A DNA stretch of 64,000 nucleotides from positions 1-64,000 of the forward strand of contig CATQGW010000002.1 in assembly GCA_958295515.1 (NCBI GenBank), given 5' to 3'. The notes under the pieces are model-generated. The model saw only the letters and a list, made by a program, of their open reading frames with translations. It searched no databases and was not told the DNA's origin. This DNA comes from an uncultured Dehalococcoidia bacterium (GTDB lineage: Bacteria; Chloroflexota; Dehalococcoidia; Bin125). Positions 6,186-21,942 of the stretch are shown here, piece by piece (positions within the stretch are counted from its first letter, which is position 1; the number at the start of each line of letters is the position of its first letter). Both the position numbers and the translations under genes were made by a program.

Positions 6186-6544
6186 TGGTGGAGACGGGGG
6201 AGAGTCGAACTCCCCGTCCAGACGGTCGCTCCCTACAGCCTCTACGCGCGTAGCCGTCGCTTGCGGTGTCCCCGTCGGCCGGCGCGTCGGCCTACCGTTA
6301 CCGGCGGGTGAGTCGGAGTGGTCTTTTCGCTGCGGTCCCGTCGTCCCGCGGCGAGCAGCCGAGCTGGTCGGCGCCGCACTCCCTCCGGCTCGGCTGCGGG
6401 TGGGAGGCGACGTCGCCGCGGTTAGGCGGCGAGGGCGAGTTCCTTGGGTTCGCCAGTTAAGGAAGGTTGGCGCGGATTAGCGAGGAGCGCCCCCTCGGCG
6501 CGCAGCCGCAGATCAGTCGGCCGCTGTCGATCCCTTTCGTCCCC
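6186..6544 (-). ncRNA. ssrA: tmRNA (SsrA), one-piece
   Basis: The minus strand begins GGGGACGAAAGGGATCGACA, the standard tmRNA 5' end, and finishes with a T-arm (GGGGAGTTCGACTCTCCCC) and an encoded CCA. The 5' GGGGAC pairs with GTCTCC next to the CCA to form the acceptor stem. Inside, codons from 6454 down to a TAA at 6422-6424 encode GEPKELALAA, so the proteolysis tag is (A)GEPKELALAA. The RNA rescues stalled ribosomes and marks the unfinished protein for degradation. Its partner SmpB is encoded 1.5 kb upstream on the same strand. Length (about 359 nt) is normal. Confidence 0.95.
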
Positions 6545-15590: not shown

Positions 15591-16541
15591 ATGGCTGAGT
15601 TTCGCAACACCTTTGCGGGCAACCCGCTGGATCGGGTCGCCGCGCAGCGGCGCGACGAGGAGTGGATTCGCGAGCGGTTGGCCGATCCGTCCACGCAGCT
15701 GCTGCCGCTGCATCGGCTGTCGCTGCCGTTCGTCGAGCGTGAGGGGCTGGCGCGGCTGGCGTGGGCGCCGGTGAGCGATCTGGAGGATGCGGACGCGGAG
15801 AGTTTTCCGGTGCTGCTGGGAGTGGAGGATGAGGCGGCGCGCTTCGCGATCAACGTTTCCGGCGTGGACGATCCGCTTGCGGTGCTCGATCTGCCGGCGG
15901 GCAGCGTCTTCCGCGATCTGCGCGAGCTTTCGGGCACGCTCGAGGCGGACGATGCGGGGATTGCGGCGCAGGCGCGGTCGCTGGTCGACTGGCACGCGCG
16001 GCATCGACACTGCGCAGTCTGCGGCGAGCACACGGAGCCGGTGCAGGGCGGCATTTCGCGCAAGTGCGTGGTCTGCCCCGCCGAGCACTTTCCGCGCACG
16101 GATCCGGTGGTGATCACGGTGGTGCATGAGGGCGAGCGTTGCCTGTTGGGTCGGCAGGCGAGCTGGCCGGCGGGGATGTTCTCGGCGCTGGCGGGTTTCA
16201 TCGATCACGGCGAGTCGATTGAGGATGCGGTGCGGCGCGAGGTGGGCGAAGAGGCGGGGATTGCGGTGCGGGAGATTCGCTATCACTCGTCGCAGCCGTG
16301 GCCGTTCCCAGCCTCGCTGATGATTGGCTGCCATGCGCTGGCGGAGACTTCGGCGATCGATTTCGACGAGTTCGAGATGGACGATGTGCGGTGGTTCACG
16401 CGGGCGGAGGTGCTGGAGGCGTTGGCGGGACCGGCGGCGAGCATCGTGGGCGATCCGGCGCGCGGCGGGGCGCTGTCGCTGCCGGGTCCGACGGCGATCG
16501 CGCACACGCTGGTGCGGGCCTGGGCGGACGCTGCCCCGTAA
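15591..16541 (+). CDS. nudC: NADH pyrophosphatase / NAD-capped RNA hydrolase, NudC-type NUDIX protein
   Basis: 316 residues with the full NudC plan: an N-terminal domain, a zinc ribbon (CAVCGEH ... CVVCPAEH), then the NUDIX box starting GFIDHGESIEDAVRREVGEE and the diagnostic SQPWPFPASLM. Such enzymes hydrolyse NAD(H) to NMN and AMP and remove NAD caps from RNA 5' ends. The start at 15591 lies 5 bases after the fhs stop; an in-frame upstream ATG at 15567 inside fhs is less likely. All four zinc cysteine positions are present. Confidence 0.93.
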   Translation: MAEFRNTFAGNPLDRVAAQRRDEEWIRERLADPSTQLLPLHRLSLPFVEREGLARLAWAPVSDLEDADAESFPVLLGVEDEAARFAINVSGVDDPLAVLDLPAGSVFRDLRELSGTLEADDAGIAAQARSLVDWHARHRHCAVCGEHTEPVQGGISRKCVVCPAEHFPRTDPVVITVVHEGERCLLGRQASWPAGMFSALAGFIDHGESIEDAVRREVGEEAGIAVREIRYHSSQPWPFPASLMIGCHALAETSAIDFDEFEMDDVRWFTRAEVLEALAGPAASIVGDPARGGALSLPGPTAIAHTLVRAWADAAP

Positions 16542-16581
16542 CGGCGTCGCGCGCGTAAGCTCGCAACAGCAGGGGGAACGC

Positions 16582-18168
16582 ATGAAGATCATCGCGATGG
16601 CGGCGTTGGCCGTGTTCTGCGCGGCGCTGGCGCTGACGGCGTGCGGCTCGGATGACGCCGCCGAGCAGGCGCAGCAGCAACAGCAGGCGACGGCGACGGT
16701 GGAACAGCCGTCTGAGCAGACGGAGCAGCAGACGGTCGCGGAGCAGGCGCAGGCTGCACCTGAGGCGCAGCAGCAACAGGCCGCGCAACAGCAGCAGGCT
16801 GTTGATCAGCCCGAGCCGCAGGCCGAAGAGAGTCAGCAGGCGCAGTCCGCCGAGCCGACGGCGTCTGAGTCGTCCGACCAGCAACAGCAGCAATCGACGG
16901 CGGCAATGGAGGGCGAGAGCACGGAGGAAGACGCGCAGGAGGAAGAGGCGGCGGCGCAGCAGCAGGCGCAAGCGCAGCAGTCGGCGCAAACGGCCGAGCA
17001 GGCGCAGGCGCGAGAGCAGGAAGAACGGGAAGCGCAGCAGGCGCGGGAGCGGGAGCGAGAGGCGCAGCGGGAGCGTGAACGGGCAGCGGAAGCGGCGCTG
17101 CAGGCGCGGGCGGAGGAGATCGCGGCCGACGCTTCGGTCAGCGACCTGGTGGGCGTGACGGCCTGGCTCAACGGCGAGCCGACGACGATCGCGCGCGAGC
17201 TGGCCAAGGGCAATGTGGTGCTGATCGACTTCTGGACGTACACCTGCGTGAACTGCGTGCGCACCTTCCCGTTTCTGCGGGAGTGGCACGCGAAGTACGC
17301 CGATCGCGGTCTGACGATCATCTCCGTCCACTCGCCGGAGTTTGAGTTCGAGGAGGAGGTTGAGAACATCCGCCAGGCGCTTGAGCAGTACGACCTGCGC
17401 TACCTCGTCGCGCAGGACAACGATTTCAGGACCTGGCGGGCGTTCAACAACCGCTACTGGCCGGCCAAGTACCTGATCGGTCCGGCGATGGACATTCGCT
17501 ACCAGCATTTCGGCGAGGGCGATTATCTGGAGACGGAGCACGAGATCCGCCGCGCGCTGATGGACGCGGGGCACGATGTGTCGGACATCGAGGAGGGCAC
17601 GGAGGCGGTCGCGCCGGTGCGGGACCCCGAATCACGCGGGCAGACGCGCGAACTCTACGGCGGCACGCGGCGCAACTATGGGCGCGTCCAGTACGCCGCG
17701 CAGCCCGAGTACTACCTCGAGGCCGGCACGGCGCAGCTCTACAACGATGTGCAGGGCAGCCTGAATTCGCGCCTGCAGGCGCGCGAGAATCACAAGTGGT
17801 ATCTGCAGGGGCTGTGGCGCAATGAAGAAGAGGCGATTGTCCACGCCCGCACGACTGAGGACCTCGAGGACTACCTGGCCTTCAAGTTCACCTCGCGCAC
17901 GGTCAACGTCGTGCTGACGGTGCCGGAAAACGGCGAACCGTTCAACGTGTACATCGAGATGGACGGGCGCTGGCTGAGGCCGCAGGAGGCGGGGGCGGAC
18001 ATCGTTTTCGACGGCGACGAGCGTTCCTACGTGCGCGTGACGCGGGACGATCTGTACCGTCTCGTGGTGCTCGACGAGTGGAGTACGCACGAGCTGAAGC
18101 TGCGTTCCAACTCCAACCAACTGGAGATTTTCGCTTTCACATTCGGTTCCTACCTGGGCGGTGAATGA
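16582..18168 (+). CDS. Gln-rich thioredoxin-like lipoprotein with DipZ-type C-terminal domain
   Basis: 528-residue exported redox protein. A signal peptide ends in lipobox LTAC. Residues ~25-170 are a very Gln/Ala/Glu-rich, probably helical stalk. Then a TlpA/DipZ-like thioredoxin fold carries DFWTYTCVNCVRTFPFLREW, with active-site CVNC, and continues WPAKYLIGPAMDIRYQHFGEG. The last ~150 residues match the carbohydrate-binding-like domain that ends mycobacterial DipZ (EYYLEAGTAQLYNDVQ, NSNQLEIFAFTFGS). Here the DipZ membrane domain is replaced by a lipid anchor. Likely role: disulfide exchange outside the membrane. It overlaps the next lipoprotein gene by an ATGA. Confidence 0.82.
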   Translation: MKIIAMAALAVFCAALALTACGSDDAAEQAQQQQQATATVEQPSEQTEQQTVAEQAQAAPEAQQQQAAQQQQAVDQPEPQAEESQQAQSAEPTASESSDQQQQQSTAAMEGESTEEDAQEEEAAAQQQAQAQQSAQTAEQAQAREQEEREAQQAREREREAQRERERAAEAALQARAEEIAADASVSDLVGVTAWLNGEPTTIARELAKGNVVLIDFWTYTCVNCVRTFPFLREWHAKYADRGLTIISVHSPEFEFEEEVENIRQALEQYDLRYLVAQDNDFRTWRAFNNRYWPAKYLIGPAMDIRYQHFGEGDYLETEHEIRRALMDAGHDVSDIEEGTEAVAPVRDPESRGQTRELYGGTRRNYGRVQYAAQPEYYLEAGTAQLYNDVQGSLNSRLQARENHKWYLQGLWRNEEEAIVHARTTEDLEDYLAFKFTSRTVNVVLTVPENGEPFNVYIEMDGRWLRPQEAGADIVFDGDERSYVRVTRDDLYRLVVLDEWSTHELKLRSNSNQLEIFAFTFGSYLGGE

Positions 18169-19265
18169 TGCATCTGAACCAGACCCTCGGCGCTGCGCTG
18201 CTGGCGCTGTTGATCGCGCTGTTCGCAGCGGCCTGCGGCAGCGGCGGCGATACGCAGCAGCAGGAGACGCCGGCCGCCGCGCAGGCGGCGCAAGCCGAAC
18301 AAGAACAGGCGCAGCCTGTTCCGCAGGCTGACCAGCAGGCGCAGGCCGCCGAACAAGCGCAGCCTGCCGAGCAGCAGGCCGTGGCGGAAGCGCCGCCGGC
18401 GGTTGACCCGCTGCAACCGGTCGCTATCGATGAGCTCAGCCCGCGGCTGGCGCTGCTCGCCGAGGGCGGCTACCCGGTCTATGTCAGCGAGGACGGCTTC
18501 ACGATCGCGCTCGGTACGCCCGATCTTGGTGTTGGGCAGCAGCGCGTGAGCATCGTGGTTGAAGGTCCCGAGGGGTTGGTGGAGTTCCCGGCGCTCGCGC
18601 TGACGTATTGGCCGGATGGCGGGGACGCGGCACCGGCGGAGGCGCTGGCCTCGTTTACGCGCTTCCCCGATGGGATTCGGGGCTTCCATCTCGCGCAGCT
18701 TGAGCTTGATCAGGCGGGGCTGTGGGTGGTCAATCTGCGCGTGCCGACGGTTGACGGTTTCACGGAGCTCCCGCTGAGCGTGCAGGTGCGCGCCGAGACA
18801 CTTGCGCCGGCGGTGGGTCAACAGGCTCCGTCCTCGGCGAACCGCACGCTGCGCGATGTGGAGGGCGCGGAGCAGCTCTCGACCGGCGCGGAGCCGGACG
18901 CGGCGCTCTACGAATTGACCGTGGCTGAGGCGCTGTCCGCCGGACAGCCCTTCGTGATCGTCTTCGCCAGCCCCGGCTTCTGCACCAACGCCTTCTGCGG
19001 GCCGCAGGTGGAGGTGCTCAGCGAGCTGCGCCTGCTGCACCCCGAAGGCGTGGCGTACATCCATGTGGACCTGTACGAGAACCCGCTGGAAGTCCGCCGC
19101 GGCGAAGTGCCGGTCGAGACGCCGCTGCTGGAAGAGTGGGGGCTGGAGACCGACGAGTGGACGTTTATCGTTGGCGCCGACGGCCTGGTTGCGGCGCGCT
19201 TCGAGGCGTTTGCTCCGATTGAGGAGGTTGAGGCGGCGCTGACGGAGGTGCTGGCGCGCGGCTAG
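18165..19265 (+). CDS. Gln-rich thioredoxin-fold lipoprotein
   Basis: 366 residues. The signal peptide ends in a lipobox (FAAAC) and is followed by a Gln/Ala/Pro-rich linker to about residue 80. A beta-sandwich-like region follows (FTIALGTPDLGVGQQRVSIV), then a thioredoxin-like domain with FASPGFCTNAFCGPQVEVLS, where two cysteines are spaced C-x4-C. The end (WTFIVGADGLVAARFEAFAP) fits the thioredoxin fold. The start overlaps the stop of the preceding redox lipoprotein (ATGATG), so the two are translated together and probably act in the same extracytoplasmic thiol pathway. Confidence 0.75.
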   Translation: MMHLNQTLGAALLALLIALFAAACGSGGDTQQQETPAAAQAAQAEQEQAQPVPQADQQAQAAEQAQPAEQQAVAEAPPAVDPLQPVAIDELSPRLALLAEGGYPVYVSEDGFTIALGTPDLGVGQQRVSIVVEGPEGLVEFPALALTYWPDGGDAAPAEALASFTRFPDGIRGFHLAQLELDQAGLWVVNLRVPTVDGFTELPLSVQVRAETLAPAVGQQAPSSANRTLRDVEGAEQLSTGAEPDAALYELTVAEALSAGQPFVIVFASPGFCTNAFCGPQVEVLSELRLLHPEGVAYIHVDLYENPLEVRRGEVPVETPLLEEWGLETDEWTFIVGADGLVAARFEAFAPIEEVEAALTEVLARG

Positions 19266-19685: not shown

Positions 19686-20531
19686 TTACTCCGTTTCGAT
19701 GGGGTGCTCCAGGGCGTTGCCGTACTCGTGCCAGGAGGCGTCGTAGTTGCGGGGGTTGTTGTAGCCGAGGAGGCGGAGGAGGAAGAGTCCGTGCGCCGCA
19801 CGGATGCCGCCCTGTCAATAGGTGGTGACGCGGGTTTCGGGGGTGATGCCGAGGTCGGCCAGCATTTGGCGCAGCTCGGCGGGCGGCTTGAGCGTGCGAA
19901 CCGGCGATTCGAGGGTGTGCAGCCACTCCAGATGCACCGCGCCGGGGATTCTGCCGCCGCGCTGGGTGCCGCGCTTGTTTGCGCCGGTCCACTCGCCGTC
20001 GGAGCGAACATCCCAGAAGATGTGGTTTTCGTCCTCAATCAGTGCGGGGATCTCGTCGAGGCGGCAGATGGTGTCGTCGTGGGGTGCGGGCGGGGTGGGA
20101 TAGTCGGCGGGTGCGGCGCGGCGGTTGTCGTTGGCGAGCGGGCGGCCTTCGGCGTACCACTTGTCGAGGCCGCCGTGGAGCACCTTGAAGTTGGTGTGTC
20201 CGAAGCGGTCGAAAGTCCACCAGACGCGGGCGGCGTAGAGGCCGCCGGAAGCGTCGTAGGCGACGACCTGGGTGTCGGGCGTGATGCCCAGCCGTCCGGC
20301 CAGGCGGGCGAATTGTTCGGAGTCTTCGAGGCCGTAGATCTGGCTGTCGTCGGAGGGGTCGCTCTTCCAGTAGCGCGAGAGCGACCAGAGCGCGCCGGGG
20401 ATGTGCAGCCGCTGGTAGGCGGGCAGCACATCGCAATCGAGCAGCACCAGGTTGTCGTCCTCGATGTGCTCGGCCAGCCAGTCGGTTTCGCAAAGCAGCT
20501 CGGGGTTGGCCCAGGCGTCCTGATCGGTCAT
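19686..20531 (-). CDS. Two-domain rhodanese (sulfurtransferase), probable selenoprotein with TGA at the catalytic Cys codon
   Basis: Read through one in-frame TGA (19815-19817) the gene gives 281 residues, the normal size of thiosulfate/3-mercaptopyruvate sulfurtransferases. Domain 1 (about residues 10-130) lacks a cysteine at its loop (AYDASGGLYAARVWW), as is usual. Domain 2 reads ...ETRVTTY-TGA-QGGIRAAHGLFLLRLLGY...NYDASWHEYGN, exactly the active loop of the family, with TGA standing for the catalytic cysteine (residue 239). Coding similarity continues to TAA 19686-19688. A hairpin follows the TGA. The simplest reading is selenocysteine; a nonsense mutation is the alternative. The start lies 7 bases after the protease gene stop, in one operon. 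Confidence 0.82.
19788..19804 (-). promoter_or_regulatory. Candidate bacterial SECIS hairpin behind the rhodanese TGA
   Basis: On the minus strand TCCGTGC (19804-19798) pairs perfectly with GCACGGA (19794-19788), leaving a 3-base loop GGC. The loop starts 17 bases after the TGA. This satisfies the published bacterial SECIS rules known to me: a short apical loop with G in its first two positions, a stem of 4 or more pairs, and 16-37 bases from UGA. The spacing matches that of the E. coli fdhF element. It lies inside the coding region, as bacterial SECIS elements do. Confidence 0.7.
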
Positions 20532-20538
20532 GGTGGAC

Positions 20539-21942
20539 TCATTCCTGCTGGGGCGCGTCTTGCGCTTCGGAATCGTCAGCATCGCTCGAGTCTTCGGCGT
20601 CGCTGTCGGCTGCGGCATCGGGCGGTTGGTATTGGCCGCGCAGGTAGTCTATTGCGGTGATCAGCTGGACATCGAGGTCGGCCTCGAAGCCGGTTTCGGG
20701 CTGTACGACCTCGATATCGGGGAGCACGCCGACGCCCTCGATGACGGTGCGGTTGGGGGAAATCCAGCGGGCGATGCTGACGTAGAGCACGCTGCCGTCG
20801 GAGAGGCGTCGGGGGAGGTTGACGGTGCCCTTGCCGGCGGTGACTTCGCCGATCAGCACGGCGCGCCCGTGGTCGCGCAGCGCCGCCGCCATCACCTCCG
20901 CGCCGGAGGCCGAGGCGCCGTTGATCAGGATTACGAGCTCCATCTCGATGCCGTTGCCGCCGCGATCGTCGCGGAAGACTTCCTCCTCACCGTCGCGGTG
21001 AATTTCGCGCAGGATCACTTCCTGATCGACGAATTCGCCGGTCGTTTCGACGGTCGCGCGCAGCAGCCCGCCGGGGTTGTTGCGGACATCGATGATCAGC
21101 TTGCCGACGTTGGCGTTGGCGGCGGCTTCGAGCAGATTGATCAGGTCGTCGCGGGTGGTCTCGGTGAACTGCGAAATCCAGATGTGGCCGATGTCGGCGA
21201 CGGCGTTGCTCTGGCGGTCAGTGAGCGGCAGCGAGCGGACGCTGGGCACGACGATTCGGTCGCGCACGATCGGCAGCAGTTCCTCGGTGCCGTCGCTGTG
21301 CCGCACCAGCAGCTCGACGGTGGTGCCGGCGGGGCCGCGGATGCGCTGGACGGCGAGTTGGAGCGACCAATCGGCGATCGACTCCCCGTCGACCTCGAGG
21401 ATCACATCGCCGTCGCGCACGCCGGAGCGCTGGGCGGGGGAGCCGTCGAAGACGGTCACGATCGTGATCTCGCCGTCGAAGTCGTTGACGGTGCAGCCGA
21501 TGCCCTCGAAGGAGCCGCCGATGTCCTCGGAGGTGAGGCGGTAGTCCTCGGCGTCGATGAATGCGGTGTGTGGGTCGCCGAGGCTATCGATGATGCCGTT
21601 AATCGCGGCGGTGCGCAGGTTGGCGGCTTCGAAGCTGGCGGGGTCGACGAAGTCGCGGTCGAGGATCTCGTAGACCTCGTCGAGGATGGCGAAGCGCGAG
21701 GCGCGGACGGCGGTCTGTGTGGGACTATCCGGTTCGCGGATGACCGGCGCGGTCACGGCGACCTCGCCGCGGGCGCTGCGCAGGAAGGCGTCGCGCCCGT
21801 CGGGCTCGTCGACGATCCGAATGACGCCGACGCCGAGCGCGAAGGCGGCGAGGAGCATGATCAGGATCAACAGCGCTGCGATGTTGCGGCGCGGACCGCG
21901 CGGCGCAGGCGGTGCGGGCTGCGGCTGGGGGAGTTCGGACAT
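20539..21942 (-). CDS. C-terminal processing peptidase (S41 family, CtpA-like)
   Basis: 467-residue serine protease with an N-terminal membrane anchor (about residues 20-42) after a Pro-rich cytoplasmic tail. A PDZ domain follows (IGCTVNDFDGEITIVTVFDG, RSGVRDGDVILEVDGESIAD). The S41 core includes LIIDVRNNPGGLL, the nucleophile serine in NGASASGAEV and the general-base lysine in GEVTAGKGTVNLPR. It acts outside the membrane on C-termini of exported proteins. The C-terminal 40 residues are an acidic Asp/Ser/Gln tail. It stands immediately upstream of the rhodanese gene. Confidence 0.93.
   Translation of the reverse strand: MSELPQPQPAPPAPRGPRRNIAALLILIMLLAAFALGVGVIRIVDEPDGRDAFLRSARGEVAVTAPVIREPDSPTQTAVRASRFAILDEVYEILDRDFVDPASFEAANLRTAAINGIIDSLGDPHTAFIDAEDYRLTSEDIGGSFEGIGCTVNDFDGEITIVTVFDGSPAQRSGVRDGDVILEVDGESIADWSLQLAVQRIRGPAGTTVELLVRHSDGTEELLPIVRDRIVVPSVRSLPLTDRQSNAVADIGHIWISQFTETTRDDLINLLEAAANANVGKLIIDVRNNPGGLLRATVETTGEFVDQEVILREIHRDGEEEVFRDDRGGNGIEMELVILINGASASGAEVMAAALRDHGRAVLIGEVTAGKGTVNLPRRLSDGSVLYVSIARWISPNRTVIEGVGVLPDIEVVQPETGFEADLDVQLITAIDYLRGQYQPPDAAADSDAEDSSDADDSEAQDAPQQE

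Follow-up and report, generated by a model that had tools for sequence, protein, structure and literature searches.

The window analyzed here, i.e. the whole stretch of 64,000 nt from a contig of an uncultured Dehalococcoidia bacterium, carries on its minus strand a reading frame that extends from an ATG at position 20531 to a TAA stop (19686–19688) and contains a single internal TGA (19815–19817). If the TGA is counted as a residue, the gene (19686–20531) encodes a protein of 281 aa, in which selenocysteine (Sec) is predicted at position 239 and which comprises two rhodanese domains (PF00581 matched twice, E-value 8e-33); the positions of its start and its end are shared by its orthologs. The residues from the TGA onwards (UQGGIRAAHGLFLLRLLGY) open with the active-site loop UQGGIR, an instance of the UxxG motif, with the codons for QGGIRA at 19797–19814 on the minus strand. 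The protein shows a full-length match to solved rhodaneses, the best being the enzyme from Thermus thermophilus (1uar in the PDB, E-value 3e-43), and in the alignment the TGA coincides with their catalytic Cys in the C-terminal domain. The initial annotation had carried the frame through the TGA, numbered the codon as residue 239, and pointed to the loop and the C-terminus beyond it and to a hairpin downstream; all of this was confirmed on re-reading of the sequence, and its remark that a standard gene caller would stop at 238 residues and lose the active site is correct. The NCBIfam scan revealed no Sec-rhodanese model among those firing on the protein, while the search of PHROGs gave no match and hence no sign of phage origin.

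An AlphaFold model built from a 19-row alignment (pLDDT 92, pTM 0.91) finds its best solved fold match in the T. thermophilus rhodanese (1uar, TM-score 0.88). Residue 239 is located in the loop between a β-strand (aa 234–238) and an α-helix (aa 243–254), as in rhodaneses, so that the predicted catalytic chalcogen of the C-terminal domain resides in the loop after a strand, in agreement with the rhodanese fold. Position 239 and Arg244 are invariant in the alignment, and no other conserved Cys was found in it, which makes an intraprotein Sec-Cys redox pair unlikely. The N-terminal domain is devoid of an active-site Cys and presumably plays a structural role, by analogy with other two-domain rhodaneses.

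Directly upstream, 7 nt before the rhodanese start, lies a gene for an S41-type peptidase-like protein (20539–21942, minus strand; named from reading of the sequence and not from a family search), which ends in an ordinary TGA stop. The order of these two genes is conserved in near relatives. Two genes for thioredoxin-like proteins (16324–18168 and 18165–19265) adjoin the rhodanese gene on the other strand; their order beside it is conserved in the nearest genus, and a TlpA-like neighbor was seen also beside the homolog L127. The extended order FabD-VOC-S41-rhodanese-Trx-TlpA-NudC-Fhs (names by sequence reading) is conserved in the nearest genus only and homologs elsewhere have unrelated flanking genes; the neighborhood, limited in this way, reveals no pathway.

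The in-frame TGA and the downstream hairpin

The homologs were collected at the protein level, first from 60 relatives and subsequently from 394 genomes of the class, and the DNA was fetched for the matches; 105 sequences, with identity to the query ranging from 81% down to about 35%, cover the position of codon 239. The catalytic position is occupied by TGA in 80 of them, by TGC in 22 and by TGT in 3, and by no other codon (the sequence from genome G356, first listed with one TAA, has TGC here). Alignment with Cys-containing homologs, which had been proposed initially as a check, places the TGA on the Cys codon of 25 homologs. In the tail beyond the TGA, the differences from the 14 nearest relatives fall mostly on the third codon position (187 versus 38 and 59), and the codon-position pattern of GC content is the same as in the upstream part. 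In each of two genomes (G341, locus L137, and G028, locus L183), the rhodanese gene occurs as two neighboring copies, and each copy has TGA as its catalytic codon. A TGA at the catalytic codon was seen also in a 34% identical rhodanese from a SAR324 MAG (L034, 4286–5110), which groups with Gammaproteobacterial Cys forms and is possibly a separate Sec lineage.

The hairpin (19788–19804, minus strand) starts 10 nt after the UGA and spans 17 nt, with a 7-bp stem and a GGC loop (TCCGTGC-GGC-GCACGGA). A small apical loop containing a G is a consensus feature of bacterial SECIS elements (PMC1088965), and such a loop is present here in a hairpin just downstream of the UGA. Folded alone, the hairpin is modestly exceptional (z = -1.69), and 1.6% of synonymous recodings give all seven pairs at its site; since folding of a single sequence is weak evidence, comparative tests were used instead. 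All 7 pairs are formed in 54 of the 80 TGA homologs and at least 5 contiguous pairs, counted from the loop, in 72, whereas the 25 Cys homologs never exhibit more than 2 contiguous pairs at the site. The codons CGT GCG GCG CAC (Arg, Ala, Ala, His) are nearly fixed in the TGA forms, but synonymously variable in the Cys forms. In a set of 35 aligned TGA sequences, standard pairing is found in 94.7% of cells (a value biased upward, as the set was picked among sequences having this hairpin) versus 18–71% for slid versions of the structure. Changes on both sides were identified at three pairs (CG to GC or AU; UA to GU; UA to GC or CG). The structure attains a covariation score of 0.174 versus 0.045 in shuffles, with none of 500 shuffles reaching 0.174 and slid structures scoring at most 0.053. 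The contrast with the Cys homologs is independent of the selection of the 35 sequences. Taken together, the comparative evidence for the hairpin is decisive.

Two homologs (L178 and L180) retain all seven pairs, formed by very different bases, and 8 TGA homologs fold differently. Four of the latter (L152, L159, L171 and L172) carry, at the corresponding position of the gene, a shifted hairpin of 7 bp whose loop has 4 nt, a finding that suggests turnover of the SECIS; three (L183, L183b and L185) have a weaker hairpin; and in one, the SAR324 sequence, no obvious counterpart of the hairpin was found. The motif TGA-N12-CGTGC-GNC-GCACG has one exact occurrence in the 2.6-Mb genome, at the rhodanese. 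The Rfam scan of the window at gathering thresholds identified no SECIS family and only a tmRNA gene (6186–6544, tag GEPKELALAA).

Selenocysteine machinery and decoding of the UGA codon

The genome that contains the window encodes tRNA-Sec (selC; 71 bits, anticodon TCA), selA (516 bits) and selB (349 bits), all above the curated cut-offs. A check for selA, selB, selC and selD, suggested in the initial annotation, was thus borne out for the first three genes, but selD was not found in the assembly (94% complete); its best match scores 24 bits, is confined to a short stretch of a 672-aa frame and probably stems from a different protein of the AIR-synthase superfamily. Among relatives from the same family selD is present in 18 of 19, and in nearly all of their genomes SelD is itself a selenoprotein, with one in-frame TGA in its gene. 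The genes that neighbor selD in the relative G003 match a region of contig C5 (273–281 kb) in the window's genome (G000), where selD is absent beside them and other genes stand in its place. Because this region is internal to the contig, relocation or real loss of selD must be considered besides a contig end; with the assembly 94% complete, the gene may reside in a part of the genome that was not assembled. Among genomes of the class that are at least 91% complete, tRNA-Sec is present in all 51 that carry a TGA rhodanese versus 28 of the 40 with a Cys form only (P = 1.8e-5, computed over related genomes that are not independent), and the six genomes with a TGA rhodanese and no tRNA-Sec are all at most 90% complete.

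We regard it as highly probable that selenocysteine is inserted at UGA codon 239 in this COG2897-like two-domain rhodanese. The conclusion of the initial annotation, that the organism makes a selenocysteine rhodanese, is supported by the conservation of the TGA, by the hairpin and by the presence of tRNA-Sec, selA and selB. It survived also checks for the two findings that, as stated there, would have refuted it, namely absence of selC and selB, both of which are encoded in the genome, and a corrected sequence with TGC or TGT at the codon, as independent assemblies of homologs with about 35–81% identity share the TGA. That a Cys rhodanese of the ordinary kind could have acquired the TGA by nonsense mutation or by sequencing error, i.e. 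that the gene could be a pseudogene or an artifact, might be suspected from the single base that separates TGA from TGC and TGT; however, this explanation is refuted by the 80 homologs with TGA and by the covariation of the hairpin with its compensatory changes, and with the tail after the TGA under protein-level selection its probability is practically nil.

A frame left open in the same manner would be expected also if UGA had been reassigned in the lineage or were read by another tRNA, with a residue other than Sec as the result. Nevertheless, of the 33 long coding-like frames in the window, 11 (about one in three, by a crude count) terminate at TGA, among them the gene directly upstream, which indicates an ordinary stop and a code that is not reassigned, while at the catalytic position UGA alternates with Cys codons only, the SECIS-type hairpin tracks the TGA forms and the genome has a tRNA-Sec with the matching anticodon; an extremely low probability is all that can be granted to such a reading. 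Hardly more credible is a selenium-dependent switch, in which the 238-residue product would have its own role at low selenium: a stop at the UGA spares the N-terminal domain and the larger part of the C-terminal one, but the short form would be deprived of the catalytic loop and of the final secondary-structure elements of the C-terminal domain, and our analysis found no evidence for a separate role of this form. According to the preferred interpretation, SelB and tRNA-Sec would decode UGA 239, directed by the 17-nt hairpin located 10 nt downstream, and the full-length rhodanese would be produced.

Predicted activity and known relatives

In the mechanism that we propose by analogy with rhodaneses, the Sec selenolate would accept sulfane sulfur from thiosulfate, 3-mercaptopyruvate or a persulfide, an enzyme selenosulfide (Se-S-) would be formed in the UQGGIR loop, and the sulfur would then be passed from the selenosulfide to a thiol acceptor. 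Comparison with the homologs favors such a single-chalcogen sulfur transfer over a Sec-Cys redox pair, and sulfur transfer is probably the main chemistry of the protein. Or perhaps the Sec protein serves mainly in the reduction of peroxide or other oxidants, or in selenium handling? Characterized selenoproteins are mostly oxidoreductases (PMC9312934), thioredoxin-like genes are found nearby in near relatives, and the genome encodes a second, canonical Cys rhodanese (loop CRIGERSS, C1:613244-614065), which may cover the bulk of thiosulfate sulfurtransferase activity. On the other hand, a conserved resolving Cys is absent, the protein retains the rhodanese fold together with an intact active loop, and the neighbors are not conserved past the closest genera; we consider a main role other than sulfur transfer unlikely. 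If the Sec enzyme is a sulfurtransferase, the separate Cys rhodanese suggests that its donor or acceptor is probably more specific.

Known relatives, such as the T. thermophilus rhodanese 1uar and the mycobacterial thiosulfate sulfurtransferases CysA2, CysA3 and SseA, share with the protein described here the fold, the domain order and the catalytic position; they have Cys in a CRIAERS or CRIGERS loop, unlike the Sec and UQGGIRA observed here. The 3-mercaptopyruvate sulfurtransferase SseA (NF008557) belongs to the same superfamily and matches over the full length; its score of 105.5 bits is far under the curated cut-off of 250, and the protein was not classed with this enzyme.

Sec in rhodaneses of the COG2897 type was first described in 2005 from three Sargasso Sea sequences (PMC1088965), and 8 sequences under cd01449 were subsequently listed from GOS (PMC2398784); the initial annotation was right in stating that marine metagenomes are a known source of such proteins. 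The COG2897 selenoprotein family is also listed in PMC9312934, and a 2026 review includes 'Rhodanese-like form 4, UxxG' (PMC13188914). The protein from the window resembles this form in having UxxG (here UQGG), a G in the SECIS loop, and Sec where its homologs have Cys; it exhibits two rhodanese domains, the second of which carries Sec at its catalytic position, and was assigned to form 4 by description, the published references being MCY3690685.1, MQG53192.1 and AACY01016424. The Sec-containing rhodanese-like forms 1–3 and the TsoB rhodanese/DsbD fusion have Sec in a rhodanese-like domain as well, but represent another family or motif (UxxS, CxU, UxxxxU, COG0607) (PMC13188914). A literature search, with most subscription journals outside its reach, found no report naming a Sec rhodanese from Chloroflexota. 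Judged from its sequence, the window's rhodanese fits the known COG2897 selenoprotein family as a very well supported additional member; in contrast to the Sargasso Sea and GOS sets of unassigned metagenome reads (3 and 8 sequences), the present set comprises 80 TGA sequences and a named lineage. What is added here is depth, covariation, co-occurrence with the machinery and a Sec/Cys history within one bacterial class.

Sec/Cys history and implications

The tree, computed from all 105 proteins with a common code for Sec and Cys, implies at least 8 Sec/Cys changes versus a mean of 22.6 after shuffling; as it was midpoint-rooted, the ancestral state can be approached only by inference. Within the family to which the window's genome belongs, every rhodanese member found has Sec, and Cys forms are nested in Sec clades more than once: two of them (L117 and L119) fall inside a Sec clade of family f57, with tRNA-Sec retained in their genomes, and another Cys nest within Sec consists of five sequences from a single group of f15. 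The chances are about even that in the Chloroflexota class Dehalococcoidia Sec is the prevailing and possibly ancestral state of the catalytic residue in this subfamily of rhodaneses, and that several independent conversions from Sec to Cys took place, some of them with tRNA-Sec retained.

As gene callers cut these proteins at 238 residues, a family of probably active (predicted) sulfurtransferases in uncultured Chloroflexota would be annotated as truncated. For SECIS finders, the compact 17-nt element, with its covariation and the variant that is shifted, offers useful training material. Matched forms with Sec and with Cys, which occur sometimes within one bacterial family, provide a ready set for testing the contribution of selenium to persulfide chemistry, and, if Sec indeed prevails in the class, its rhodaneses would constitute a natural experiment on why selenium benefits sulfur transfer.
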